In this document: piece after piece, positions 52,976 to 57,682 of the stretch
How the letters are laid out: every line of letters begins with the position of its first letter
Position numbering within the stretch: position 1 is the first letter of the stretch
Assembly: GCA_016844935.1 (NCBI GenBank)
Contig: JAERTK010000143.1
Coordinates: forward strand, 1-64,000
Source of the DNA: Desulfobacteraceae bacterium
GTDB taxonomy: Bacteria > Desulfobacterota > DSM-4660 > Desulfatiglandales > Desulfatiglandaceae
Direction of reading: 5' to 3'
DNA: 64,000 nucleotides
Notes under the pieces: model-generated
Told to the model about the DNA's origin: nothing
The model's database searches: none
What the model saw: the letters and a program-made list of their open reading frames with translations, nothing else
Made by a program: the position numbers and the translations under genes

Positions 52976-54697
52976 GTGAAAAAATTGAAAAACCGACCAC
53001 CGGAAAACGATCAGGATATGGGAAACAGTCGTGGGGTTCTGCCCCTGGACGGCACATTTTTTGATGGTCTGCATGGCCTTTCAGGCCCTAAGGCCTTGGA
53101 AAGAGTCTTAAAGCACCCGGATTGCCCCCGTTTGATCCAGACCATGTCCAGCGAGGATTTTTTCTGGCTGATCAGCAAGGTGGGCGCGGATGGGTCCCTT
53201 GAATTGTTAAGATTGGCTTCTCTGGATCAGTGGCAATATATCCTTGATGTGGAATCCTGGCAGAAGGACCGCATGGAAATGAACCGCACGGGCGGATGGA
53301 TCCGGCGGATGCTGGCAGCCGACCCGAAACGATTTGCGAAATGGATTTTTTATGAAGGGCAGGGGTTTGTTTACTATTACCTCTACCGAAACATCGTGGT
53401 GGAAGTAAAGGATGAAGATGAGGAAAATTTTGAGCCGGGGCCTGAATTTTTTACCATTGACGGGTTTTTCTACATTCGGGCGATACAGGAAGATCAGCGG
53501 GAAACCATTGAAACCCTGCTTCGAACAATTGCCGAGGAGGACACCCTTAAATACCAGGGACTCATCACGGGGCTTGCCGGCGTACTCCCGGCGGAACTTG
53601 AAGAGAGCATTTACCGCATGAGAAACGTTCGACTGGCGGAGCATGGCTTCATCCCCCGGGAAGAGGCCATTGCCGTGTATGCACCACTGGACCCGCAGCG
53701 CCTTAGAAAAAACACACAGAATCCCACAGAAGAACCGGTTTCAGGGCCAGAAGATCCTGAACTGGTTCCCCGATGGCCCCTGCAAACCGTTCAGGGGCAG
53801 AACCTGTTAGCGAAAACCATTTCGAATCTGTCCGATGCGGAACTTTTAGATCGTATCCGTCTTGAGTTCGCGGGCCTCTGTAACCAGATCGTATCCGCTG
53901 AAGGCCTCATGGACTGGGATATGGATGATCTTGAGGAAATTCAAATGCAGGCGGCCGGTTACCTGAACATGATTTTAAAGGAACAATGCGGTGAGAATTT
54001 AAAAACTGCTGAAAACCTGCTCAGGATGAACCCCCTCGTAATTCTGTTTCGTGCGGGCTTCGGATTGGCTTTAAATCTGAAATGGAGGGCTGAGCGGTGG
54101 TTGAAGGAGTGCTGGTTTCATGGAGCGGGTCTGGAGGCGTCTTTCTGGGGCCAGGAATGGGGGCGTACGCTTACGGGTATTTTAAACAAGAGACCTCTTT
54201 ATTATATGGGGAATGAATCACCCAATGGCTTCAGACATTTTCAATCCCTGTCCGATTTGTCCTCCGCCGCTGCCATCCTGGACCTTCTGGAGGGGCTGGA
54301 CAGCCTCATGAGAGAGTTGACAAAGAAGTACCCACTGGATGCTTCGGACTCTGAACCCTTTGATCTGACTTTTTATCAACTGCTGTTCACCATGTGGGCT
54401 CGGGAACTGCTGGAGCTGGAGTCTGGTTTCAAATCCGTTTCCCTCGAGCAGGCAAAGGGGTTCTTGAGCCTTTTAAGGGCAGGGGATACCGAGCCCCCTT
54501 ACCGCATGTTCGGCTTTGAGGAGCGGTTTCTGAAGGCATTTGAGACCCCTGCCCTGGACCCTGAATCTAACACTTCGAAAAACCTGAGAGACGCATTGGC
54601 ACAAACCTGGCGGGATTTCAGCGACGAGATGGAAACCGTACCAACGGATGCTTTGGATGCGAAATACAGCAAATATATCCTGATTACGGCCTCTTGA
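52976..54697 (+). CDS. DUF6178-family protein
   Basis: This 573-aa soluble protein fits the DUF6178 family pattern known from delta-proteobacteria (GADGSLELLRLASLDQWQYILDVESW, about residue 70, and EGQGFVYYYLYRNI). The function of the family is unknown. No signal peptide, membrane helix or catalytic motif is visible; it is rich in helix. GTG 52976 is the longest start with GAGGA; ATG 53018 is the next. Convergent overlap of 14 bases with the next gene. Confidence 0.78.
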   Translation: MKKLKNRPPENDQDMGNSRGVLPLDGTFFDGLHGLSGPKALERVLKHPDCPRLIQTMSSEDFFWLISKVGADGSLELLRLASLDQWQYILDVESWQKDRMEMNRTGGWIRRMLAADPKRFAKWIFYEGQGFVYYYLYRNIVVEVKDEDEENFEPGPEFFTIDGFFYIRAIQEDQRETIETLLRTIAEEDTLKYQGLITGLAGVLPAELEESIYRMRNVRLAEHGFIPREEAIAVYAPLDPQRLRKNTQNPTEEPVSGPEDPELVPRWPLQTVQGQNLLAKTISNLSDAELLDRIRLEFAGLCNQIVSAEGLMDWDMDDLEEIQMQAAGYLNMILKEQCGENLKTAENLLRMNPLVILFRAGFGLALNLKWRAERWLKECWFHGAGLEASFWGQEWGRTLTGILNKRPLYYMGNESPNGFRHFQSLSDLSSAAAILDLLEGLDSLMRELTKKYPLDASDSEPFDLTFYQLLFTMWARELLELESGFKSVSLEQAKGFLSLLRAGDTEPPYRMFGFEERFLKAFETPALDPESNTSKNLRDALAQTWRDFSDEMETVPTDALDAKYSKYILITAS

Positions 54698-54934: not shown

Positions 54935-55318
54935 TTATTTTTCAGCTGTTGCATTATTGGTTTGGGCATGTTTCTCCAGTGTCCCCGCGCTGTACCCGGC
55001 TTTTTCGTAGTTATCGATGGCCCTCATTTTCAGCTGGTTGTCTTTGACCTTTTCCGCATGGGTATCCGCCAGTTCAGCCGCATGACTCCACATCCCTTCC
55101 TTTTCGTAGGAAGCGATCTTCCGGTTGATGTGGGAATGCGTTTCCGAAGTTTCCATGACGGCTGCTCGGCACCAGGAGATGACTTTCCTGACAACATGTC
55201 CGCAATCCGGACATTTTTCAAGGGGTTTGTCGTTAATATTTTGCATATATTCAAAACCATACTGACATTTATTACAAGTTTGGTTTAAATTAACGGGTTC
55301 GTATTCATATATGGGCAT
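54935..55318 (-). CDS. FmdB-type zinc-ribbon protein
   Basis: This 127-aa protein starts with the FmdB-like zinc ribbon (MPIYEYEPVN, C-x2-C in CNKC at about 15-18, and C-x2-C in CPDCG at about 36-39, then VRKVIS). The C-terminal 80 residues are helical and charged. FmdB proteins are thought to be regulators or nucleic-acid-binding factors, with little direct evidence. It lies 60 bases downstream of the cysteine synthase fusion in the same direction. Confidence 0.82.
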   Translation of the reverse strand: MPIYEYEPVNLNQTCNKCQYGFEYMQNINDKPLEKCPDCGHVVRKVISWCRAAVMETSETHSHINRKIASYEKEGMWSHAAELADTHAEKVKDNQLKMRAIDNYEKAGYSAGTLEKHAQTNNATAEK

Positions 55319-55378: not shown

Positions 55379-57682
55379 TTAGGTTCTTCTCCATCGAGGT
55401 CCGTCCTGGGTGTCGATCACCTCAATTCCCATTTTCTCCATTTCCTTCCTGAGATCGTCGGCCGCAGACCAGTCTTTTTGACCCCTGGCCAGTTCCCTTT
55501 TGTTGATGAGTGCCTCCACCTCCGGATCGGCATCGGTGGGTTCAAGGTCCATGAAGCCCAGGACCGAATTGATTCGCTCAAGAGCCGCCAGCACCTTTTC
55601 CCGGTCTGAAACGGCCAGGCCCCTTTGATCCGCCTTCAGGTTGATGTTGCGGGTAAAGCGAAAAAGGGCTGCTAGTCCTGCGGCCACATTGAAATCATCG
55701 TCCATTGCCGCCACAAACTCCTGTTTCAGGGCATAGATGATCTGGTCGATATCGGGGTTTACAGAGGCCGATTTTGCGAAATACAGTTTTTGAACAAATT
55801 TATCAAGATGGGAAAGGGTGTTTCTGACAGCGGAGAGCTTTGTCTGGGAAAAGAAAATCGGTTTCCGGTAATGCCGGCTGAGTAACCAGTATCGGACTTC
55901 CCTTCCCGTAAACCCTTTTGCCAGAAGATCCCTGAAGGTCAGGTGAACGTTATCAAAGGCATTGGGGCCGCTGAACATGACAGGCTCATTGTGCAGCCAG
56001 TAATTTGCGAGCGGCCTGTCGGTGGCGGCCTGACTGATGGCGATGGCGTTTTCGTGGTGGGGGAATGCCAGGGCCACACCGCTGGTGTGGATATCGTGCG
56101 TGGACCCGAGGGTTTTAAGGGCAATGGTGGCGCACTCAAGATGCCATCCTGGGCGCACATTTCCCCATTTCGTTTTGAAGAAGAGTCCGGATTTCAATTC
56201 GCTGAGGGTGGACCTCTTCAACAGAGTGAAATCTTTTGGGTTTTCCTTTTCATATTGGTCCAGGTCAACGGTTTTCCCGATTCTGATTTTATCCAGGTCC
56301 ACGTTGGAGAGCTTTCCGTAATCCTTGAACCTGGAGATGTCAAAATATATGGAACGCAGCTTTTCATAGGCATATCCCTTCTCCAGAAGGGTCTGGGTAA
56401 GGGCAATCATGTCGTCCACATGTTCGCTGGGCCGGGGGTATTGGGTGGCTTTTACGATGTTGAGGCTGTCCAGATCCGTCATGAAGGAATTGTAAAACAT
56501 ATCGGTAAATTCTTTGAGGGAAACACCCGCCCCTTGGGCCCCTTCGATGGTACGGTCGTCCAGGTCCGTCACATTCATGATGTGGGTTACGCCGTACCCT
56601 TTAAAGGCCATATAGCGGCTGATCAGATCCGAGAAAAGGAGACGTCTGCATTGCACGAGATCAATGACCTCACAAAGGGTGGGACCGCAGGAATAGAGGG
56701 TGACATGATTCTCTTTTACGGGAACGAAATCCTCTTTTTTGCGGGTCATGGTATTGTACACCCGAAGCCCTGATTTCTTTTTGGCCATGAACAGGGGCGT
56801 GCTGAGATATCTCTCGCCGCCATCGGGCAGAATAACCACGATGCGGCCCCGGTCCATCTTTCGGGCCACCTTAAGGGCCACCGCCATGGCAGCACCGGAA
56901 CTCATCCCCACAAAAATCCCTTCTTTTAGAGCCAGCATTCGGGTGACTTCAAATGCGTCTTCATCTTCAATTTTGATGATCTGGTCTGCCCGCTCTTTTT
57001 CGAATATACCCGGTTGGTACGACTCTTTCATGTTTTTGAGGCCCTGGATTTTGTGCCCCAGATACGGTTCAACGCCGACGATCTGTACAGAGGGATCCAA
57101 CTCCCTGAACCGCCTGGAAATGCCCATGAGGGTACCTGTGGTTCCCATGGTGGCCACAATGGCGTTAATCTGCCCTTCCGTCTGCTCCCATATCTCCATG
57201 GCCGTGCTTTCATAGTGGGCCATCCAGTTGGCGTCATTGTTGAATTGATCGGCCAGCCAGAATTTTTCCGGGTTTTCCCGCGCCAGGTTGTAAACATGCT
57301 CAATGGCACCATCGGTTCCCAGGTGTGCCGGGGTGAATTCTATTTTTGCCCCCAGGGCTGCAAGAATTTTGACCCGTTCTTCACTAACCGCTTCGGACAT
57401 GGTCAATAATATATCGTATCCCTTGACGGCGGCCACCATGGCCAGACCGATCCCCGTGTTGCCGCTGGTGGCCTCCAGAATGGTCTTGTCTTTCTTCAAT
57501 GCCCCTGATTCTTCGGCCATTTCAATCATCTTCAGGGCTGGCCGGTCCTTGACGGATCCACCGGGGTTAAACCCCTCCAGCTTGGCCAGTATCTCCACAT
57601 CCTTGCTGGGTGTAAGCCGGGTAATGGATACCAGCGGAGTATTGCCGATTTTACCGAGAATATTGTTGTAATGATGGGTCAT
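55379..57682 (-). CDS. Cysteine synthase fused to inactive CysRS-like domain
   Basis: This 767-aa protein has two full enzyme-like parts. Residues 1-305 form a CysM/CysK-type O-acetylserine sulfhydrylase with PLP K45 in GGSVKDRP, EATSGNTGIG (70-79) and MGTTGTLMG. Residues 306-767 align end to end with cysteinyl-tRNA synthetase (SCGPT at 331-335, NVTDLDD, GWHLEC, FPHHEN, terminal WRRT), but HIGH is DLVQ (341-344) and KMSKS is lost (MFSGP, 569-573). Of the four zinc ligands known in E. coli CysRS, C332, C517 and H542 remain while the Glu is A546. The tRNA-synthetase part should not activate cysteine, but may still bind it or tRNA. The fusion is a single intact frame; Lys45 and the PLP pocket support real synthase activity. 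Confidence 0.92.
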   Translation of the reverse strand: MTHHYNNILGKIGNTPLVSITRLTPSKDVEILAKLEGFNPGGSVKDRPALKMIEMAEESGALKKDKTILEATSGNTGIGLAMVAAVKGYDILLTMSEAVSEERVKILAALGAKIEFTPAHLGTDGAIEHVYNLARENPEKFWLADQFNNDANWMAHYESTAMEIWEQTEGQINAIVATMGTTGTLMGISRRFRELDPSVQIVGVEPYLGHKIQGLKNMKESYQPGIFEKERADQIIKIEDEDAFEVTRMLALKEGIFVGMSSGAAMAVALKVARKMDRGRIVVILPDGGERYLSTPLFMAKKKSGLRVYNTMTRKKEDFVPVKENHVTLYSCGPTLCEVIDLVQCRRLLFSDLISRYMAFKGYGVTHIMNVTDLDDRTIEGAQGAGVSLKEFTDMFYNSFMTDLDSLNIVKATQYPRPSEHVDDMIALTQTLLEKGYAYEKLRSIYFDISRFKDYGKLSNVDLDKIRIGKTVDLDQYEKENPKDFTLLKRSTLSELKSGLFFKTKWGNVRPGWHLECATIALKTLGSTHDIHTSGVALAFPHHENAIAISQAATDRPLANYWLHNEPVMFSGPNAFDNVHLTFRDLLAKGFTGREVRYWLLSRHYRKPIFFSQTKLSAVRNTLSHLDKFVQKLYFAKSASVNPDIDQIIYALKQEFVAAMDDDFNVAAGLAALFRFTRNINLKADQRGLAVSDREKVLAALERINSVLGFMDLEPTDADPEVEALINKRELARGQKDWSAADDLRKEMEKMGIEVIDTQDGPRWRRT

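Follow-up and report, generated by a model that had tools for sequence, protein, structure and literature searches.

Architecture of the fusion gene

The 64,000-nucleotide stretch analysed here (the window; Desulfobacteraceae bacterium, GenBank assembly GCA_016844935.1, contig JAERTK010000143.1, positions 1 to 64,000) carries on its minus strand, at 55379..57682, a gene for a 767-residue protein in which a CysM-like cysteine synthase is joined to a half resembling cysteinyl-tRNA synthetase (CysRS). A reading made from the letters alone (hereafter the sequence-only reading) had already proposed this fusion, and its coordinates proved right: the open frame runs from an ATG at 57682 to 55379 with no internal stop, and the same unbroken frame recurs across the phylum in dozens of independent genomes, which rules out two frameshifted genes or an assembly artefact. 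Family counts given below refer to 113 non-redundant fusions drawn from the higher-scoring matches, a sample in which the more divergent members are under-represented.

We propose that the N-terminal half works as a CysM-like cysteine synthase. Its PALP domain (residues 10-287; 56822..57655; 240 bits in Pfam) matches the structures of CysK and CysM, with 45% identity to 2bhs over 286 residues and further matches to Mycobacterium tuberculosis CysM (3fgp and 3dki). The lysine that carries pyridoxal phosphate (PLP), Lys45 (57548..57550), had been reported as intact and indeed lies in an SVKDR motif that aligns to the CysM structures; both this residue and the carboxylate-binding loop ATSGNTGI are invariant or nearly so among the fusions. 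Against the cysteine synthase model TIGR01136 the protein scores 369.5 bits, above the cut-off of 344, and against the CysM equivalog TIGR01138 it scores 369.3 bits, below the cut-off of 394.2. A substrate loop at residues 209-227 (57002..57058; GHKIQGLKNMKESYQPGIF) is near-invariant among the fusions, and in the family-invariant GLKNMKESY loop a lysine takes the place of an arginine of E. coli CysM. Of 46 genomes, 42 have SerA above its cut-off, so the fused synthase may act on O-phosphoserine.

The C-terminal half is full-length, as the sequence-only reading had it, although that reading gave its last domain no weight. Pfam finds the catalytic fold (tRNA-synt_1e, residues 319-620; 55823..56728; 268 bits), which aligns to the E. 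coli enzyme in structure 1u0b, followed by a DALR_2 domain (residues 655-710; 55553..55720) and a CysS_C anticodon-binding domain (residues 717-765; 55388..55534). An AlphaFold model of the whole protein has a mean predicted local distance difference test score (pLDDT) of 86.9, with each half well folded, and its residues 305-767 superpose on tRNA-bound E. coli CysRS (1u0b_B) with a Z score of 48.2 over 439 residues, at a root-mean-square deviation of 3.0.

Loss of the ATP site and retention of the anticodon reader

Aligned to E. coli CysRS, the HIGH position of the window copy reads DLVQ (residues 341-344; 56651..56662), and the KMSKS motif is absent from its expected place, where the stretch reads VMFSGPNAFDNVHL (residues 568-578; 55949..55981). 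The sequence-only reading had recognised that both ATP motifs are gone; what the family adds is that the loss is graded and general, not a peculiarity of this copy. KMSKS is intact in none of the 113 fusions, and HxGH/N survives in only 7 of them, compared with 51 of 53 standalone CysRS. The minimum number of changes on the tree is at least 15 for H37, the first histidine of HIGH, 7 for KMS and 4 for the zinc/cysteine triad described next. A few members, L134 for example, keep HLGN and KMSRS.

The zinc-binding cysteine pocket has fared better. Three of its four ligands are present in the window copy, again as first noted, namely Cys332 (C28 of E. coli CysRS; 56687..56689), Cys517 (C209; 56132..56134) and His542 (H234), while the fourth, E238, is replaced by Ala546 (His542 to Ala546, 56045..56059). 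The C28/C209/H234 triad is found in 96/113 fusions and all four ligands in 44/113, the fourth being lost in more than half of the family. Equivalents of W205 and H224 are kept in 110 and 102 of the fusions, respectively.

Retention of the anticodon-reading surface is stricter still. In E. coli CysRS, according to passages of PMC12684709 that cite Hauenstein 2004, R427 and D436 hydrogen-bond to G34 of tRNA-Cys, W432 stacks on it and R423 reaches it via water, these contacts belonging to structure 1u0b. All four positions are kept in 113/113 fusions (R427 as lysine in two, residue 432 as an aromatic), and so are the equivalents of R439 and D451, although the sourced G34 contacts cover the first four residues only. 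In the window copy the set comprises R729, R733, W738, D742, R745 and D757 (55412..55498; R423, R427, W432, D436, R439 and D451 of E. coli), and it is kept as such in 111 fusions, the other two being those with lysine for R427. Apart from these residues, conservation along the fusion is lowest in the C-terminal region (mean 0.53, against 0.67 and 0.75), so the signal at the reader is specific. The reader is present even in seven sequences, forming one clade, that have lost both the zinc and the ATP sites. Thus, of the features of a functional CysRS, the window copy lacks HIGH, KMSKS and the full set of four zinc ligands and has the G34-reading residues. This putative tRNA-Cys reader is the main signal that the sequence-only reading missed.

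Within the genus, the ratio of nonsynonymous to synonymous substitution rates (dN/dS) is about 0.05-0.07 in both halves; only within-genus values were used, synonymous sites being near saturation in wider comparisons. We therefore take the CysRS-like domain to be working, and the strong purifying selection rules out a decaying pseudogene domain.

Genome setting

The fusion is not the cell's sole CysRS. An ordinary 485-residue CysRS with HIGH and KMSKS is encoded elsewhere in the window's genome (C221), and although this assembly has a listed contamination of 7.35%, two genomes of the same genus (G059 and G062) agree. Indeed, an ordinary cysS is present in 64/64 genomes checked.

The same 64 genomes fall into two groups with respect to the rest of the cysteine pathway. 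In 31 of them, the window's genome included (C167), cysE has a strong match and is accompanied by another cysteine synthase, usually adjacent. Both are missing from 32, while G054 retains nothing but a fragment of a second synthase. Half of the genomes, then, have no recognisable CysE, and no cysteine synthase other than the fusion was found in them, as counted at 1e-50 for TIGR01136 and above 100 bits for TIGR01172, thresholds at which unrelated enzymes in the missing roles could have been overlooked. We considered a link between the state of the ATP motif and cysE, HxG being kept in 18 of 29 cases without cysE versus 5 of 26 with it, and rejected it when the association was lost under independent contrasts (median p 0.25).

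Five short extra CysRS paralogues, matched to about residue 400 and without an anticodon domain, were also encountered (G024:C6:115358, G062:C104:7085, G350:C34:19106, G440:C1:2100534 and G214:C61:164356), two of them with an in-frame TAG or TAA inside a read-through open frame. They may correspond to the SelC*-charging CysRS* of Mukai 2017.

Distribution, origin and locus context

Within the order, 67/85 genomes carry the fusion family, among them 27 of the 30 good ones; a few of these matches are fragments truncated at the edge of a contig. Counted as open frames of more than 700 residues, the family is present in at least 146 of 395 genomes sampled across the phylum. Its named relatives almost all belong to deltaproteobacterial lineages of sulfate reducers, NaphS2 and Desulfocapsa among them. 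The family is widespread in a phylum of sulfate reducers, where sulfide is abundant. Two other phyla were searched, those of a rhodobacterial record (L094; 299 genomes) and a clostridial record (L063; 249 genomes), and the fusion was found in neither; a plasmid collection gave no match covering 80% of the query.

In a FastTree phylogeny, in which all support values are local, the CysRS halves of the fusions form one clade with support of 100, which on this tree is a single origin. One apparent exception inside the clade, L059, is a fusion truncated where its contig ends, and two standalone CysRS from Woesearchaeota are sister to the clade (support 98). Of the standalone proteins seen, those nearest to the synthase half are 313-residue frames at 52-53% identity (G467:C40:62186 and G470:C139:4391; an Actinomycetota metagenome-assembled genome and Candidatus Aquicultor). 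The longest open frame of the family (L171, 1403 residues) has no extra fused domain in Pfam, and the other long frames read like stop-free upstream sequence. In one single-contig genome (G098:C1:2736769-2739059) a frame change or stop interrupts the fusion within its CysRS half, reflecting either a sequencing error or a real loss.

In the window, the gene is neighboured by a DUF6178 protein (52976-54697, plus strand) and a Zn_ribbon_8 (FmdB-like) protein (54935-55318, minus strand). In seven related genomes (L038, L041, L044-L046, L048 and L055) a pair of serine tRNA genes, tRNA-Ser (gct) and tRNA-Ser (tga), lies downstream of the fusion on the opposite strand; this is probably shared synteny.

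Discussion

Overall, we believe that the CysRS half is a non-catalytic regulatory domain of the cysteine synthase, binding tRNA-Cys and usually cysteine as well, a reading that we favour on balance and with modest confidence. A non-catalytic tRNA-Cys sensing domain is the simplest account of the family because the tRNA reader is strictly kept, the cysteine pocket is often kept and the ATP site is lost. On this model, the CysRS half would no longer make cysteinyl-adenylate, and a separate, ordinary CysRS would charge tRNA-Cys for translation. The half would bind tRNA-Cys by way of the anticodon-reading surface, which is intact, and in most lineages its former zinc pocket would hold free cysteine; that of the window copy may do so too, probably more weakly after the loss of its fourth zinc ligand. 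Uncharged tRNA-Cys might then serve as the signal of shortage and cysteine as the signal of plenty, with the occupancy of the domain tuning the synthase. In members whose genomes lack cysE, the CysRS-like domain would be a natural point of feedback, in place of serine acetyltransferase. We offer more tentatively the specific proposal that uncharged tRNA-Cys on the dead CysRS switches cysteine synthesis on, so that the enzyme would be gated by the charging state of a tRNA.

Several points weigh against this model. Binding of tRNA-Cys and of cysteine and regulation of the synthase are inferred, and both the signal that is read (uncharged or charged tRNA, or cysteine) and the sign of the regulation are guesses. 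The predicted template-modelling score of the AlphaFold model is 0.59, which leaves the mutual placement of the halves uncertain, and no allosteric path is visible. The reader residues could be kept for the stability of the fold, though the rest of the region is the least conserved. In addition, the surroundings of the gene offer no help: there is no conserved operon partner, no gene family being near more than 9 of 65 fusion loci, a tRNA scan of 60 loci placed no tRNA-Cys gene nearby, and no Rfam element, T-box included, was found in the 50-64 kb part of the window.

The strongest competitor, which we consider unlikely, is a pure feedback domain in which the zinc/cysteine pocket binds the product and inhibits the synthase while the anticodon domain is merely structural. 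It is close to the cysteine sensor or carrier favoured by the sequence-only reading, and the frequency of the triad, together with that of W205 and H224, speaks for a cysteine pocket in most of the family. Yet in the 17/113 fusions that have lost the triad the domain is still complete, anticodon reader included, and the fourth zinc ligand is gone from the majority, the window copy among them. Because some lineages have lost the zinc/thiol triad and retained everything else, the function common to the family cannot, on the pattern of conservation, be that of a pure cysteine sensor or carrier; cysteine sensing may hold for many members, and the extension to all does not. As for two further roles suggested for the half, the lack of an ATP site makes it unlikely that cysteine is delivered onto tRNA, and genomic context lends no support to a carrier that would serve thiol or cluster synthesis.

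A CysRS half that binds no ligand at all and serves for structure or oligomerisation is improbable, in our estimate. Such a module would explain how both substrate sites can vanish while the domain stays, but not the strong purifying selection or why the residues that read RNA are invariant when the region around them varies. We give still less credence to a divergent, active CysRS, or a cysteine ligase like MshC or CysRS* with another acceptor: members such as L134, with HLGN and KMSRS, invite it, whereas the near-absence of both ATP motifs across the family and their complete absence from the window copy point the other way, and no conventional Cys-tRNA synthetase activity is expected, as had been predicted. 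Least probable of all is a bacterial analogue of the SepRS/SepCysS route, in which the CysRS-like half would present seryl- or phosphoseryl-tRNA-Cys to the PLP half to give Cys-tRNA-Cys; the retained reader would suit it and PLP enzymes acting on aminoacyl-tRNA do exist, SepCysS being the precedent, but an ordinary CysRS is always present, the invariant TSGNTG carboxylate-binding loop is that expected for a free amino-acid substrate, and SepRS was found in 0/46 genomes searched, with archaeal controls positive.

If a tRNA-Cys sensing domain is indeed what the fusion carries, the result would be a direct link between tRNA and the supply of an amino acid, made by joining a biosynthetic enzyme to a dead synthetase whose tRNA reader is invariant. 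Across much of a bacterial phylum, translational demand would control cysteine supply at the post-translational level, and in roughly half of the genomes this control would replace the CysE feedback step. A phrase search of the open-access literature found no description of the fusion, though an earlier one is possible in subscription papers, and the passages searched of PMC2922099, PMC5424206, PMC9437257 and PMC13215547 do not describe it.

The fusion can be compared with several known families. With CysM and O-phosphoserine sulfhydrylase it shares the PLP lysine and carboxylate loop, and it differs from them in its family-specific invariant LKNMKESY loop and its CysRS-like half. With CysRS (1u0b, 1li5) it shares the full-length fold, anticodon domain included, and it differs in lacking HIGH, KMSKS and one zinc ligand and in being joined to a cysteine synthase. 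MshC and CysRS* are CysRS paralogues with roles outside ordinary charging, as stated in passages of PMC9437257. Both have retained ATP chemistry but have no anticodon domain, and the fusion family is the reverse; the MshC equivalog TIGR03447 gives 157 bits against a cut-off of 485, and CysS_C is present, unlike in MshC.

The closest parallels are regulators derived from synthetases, which are known for histidine. GCN2 is a eukaryotic kinase with a HisRS-like domain that senses uncharged tRNA, and HisZ, which resembles HisRS, regulates ATP phosphoribosyltransferase as a separate subunit of class II and has no anticodon domain. In the fusion family the catalytic motifs are lost, and control of the synthase by the domain is proposed. 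As in GCN2, a catalytically dead synthetase domain would bind tRNA and control an attached enzyme, only here that enzyme is not a kinase but the one that makes the amino acid. As in HisZ, a synthetase-derived, non-charging domain would regulate a biosynthetic enzyme of its own amino acid; but whereas HisZ is separate, of class II and has lost its anticodon domain, the domain described here is of class I, fused to its enzyme, and has kept its anticodon reader.
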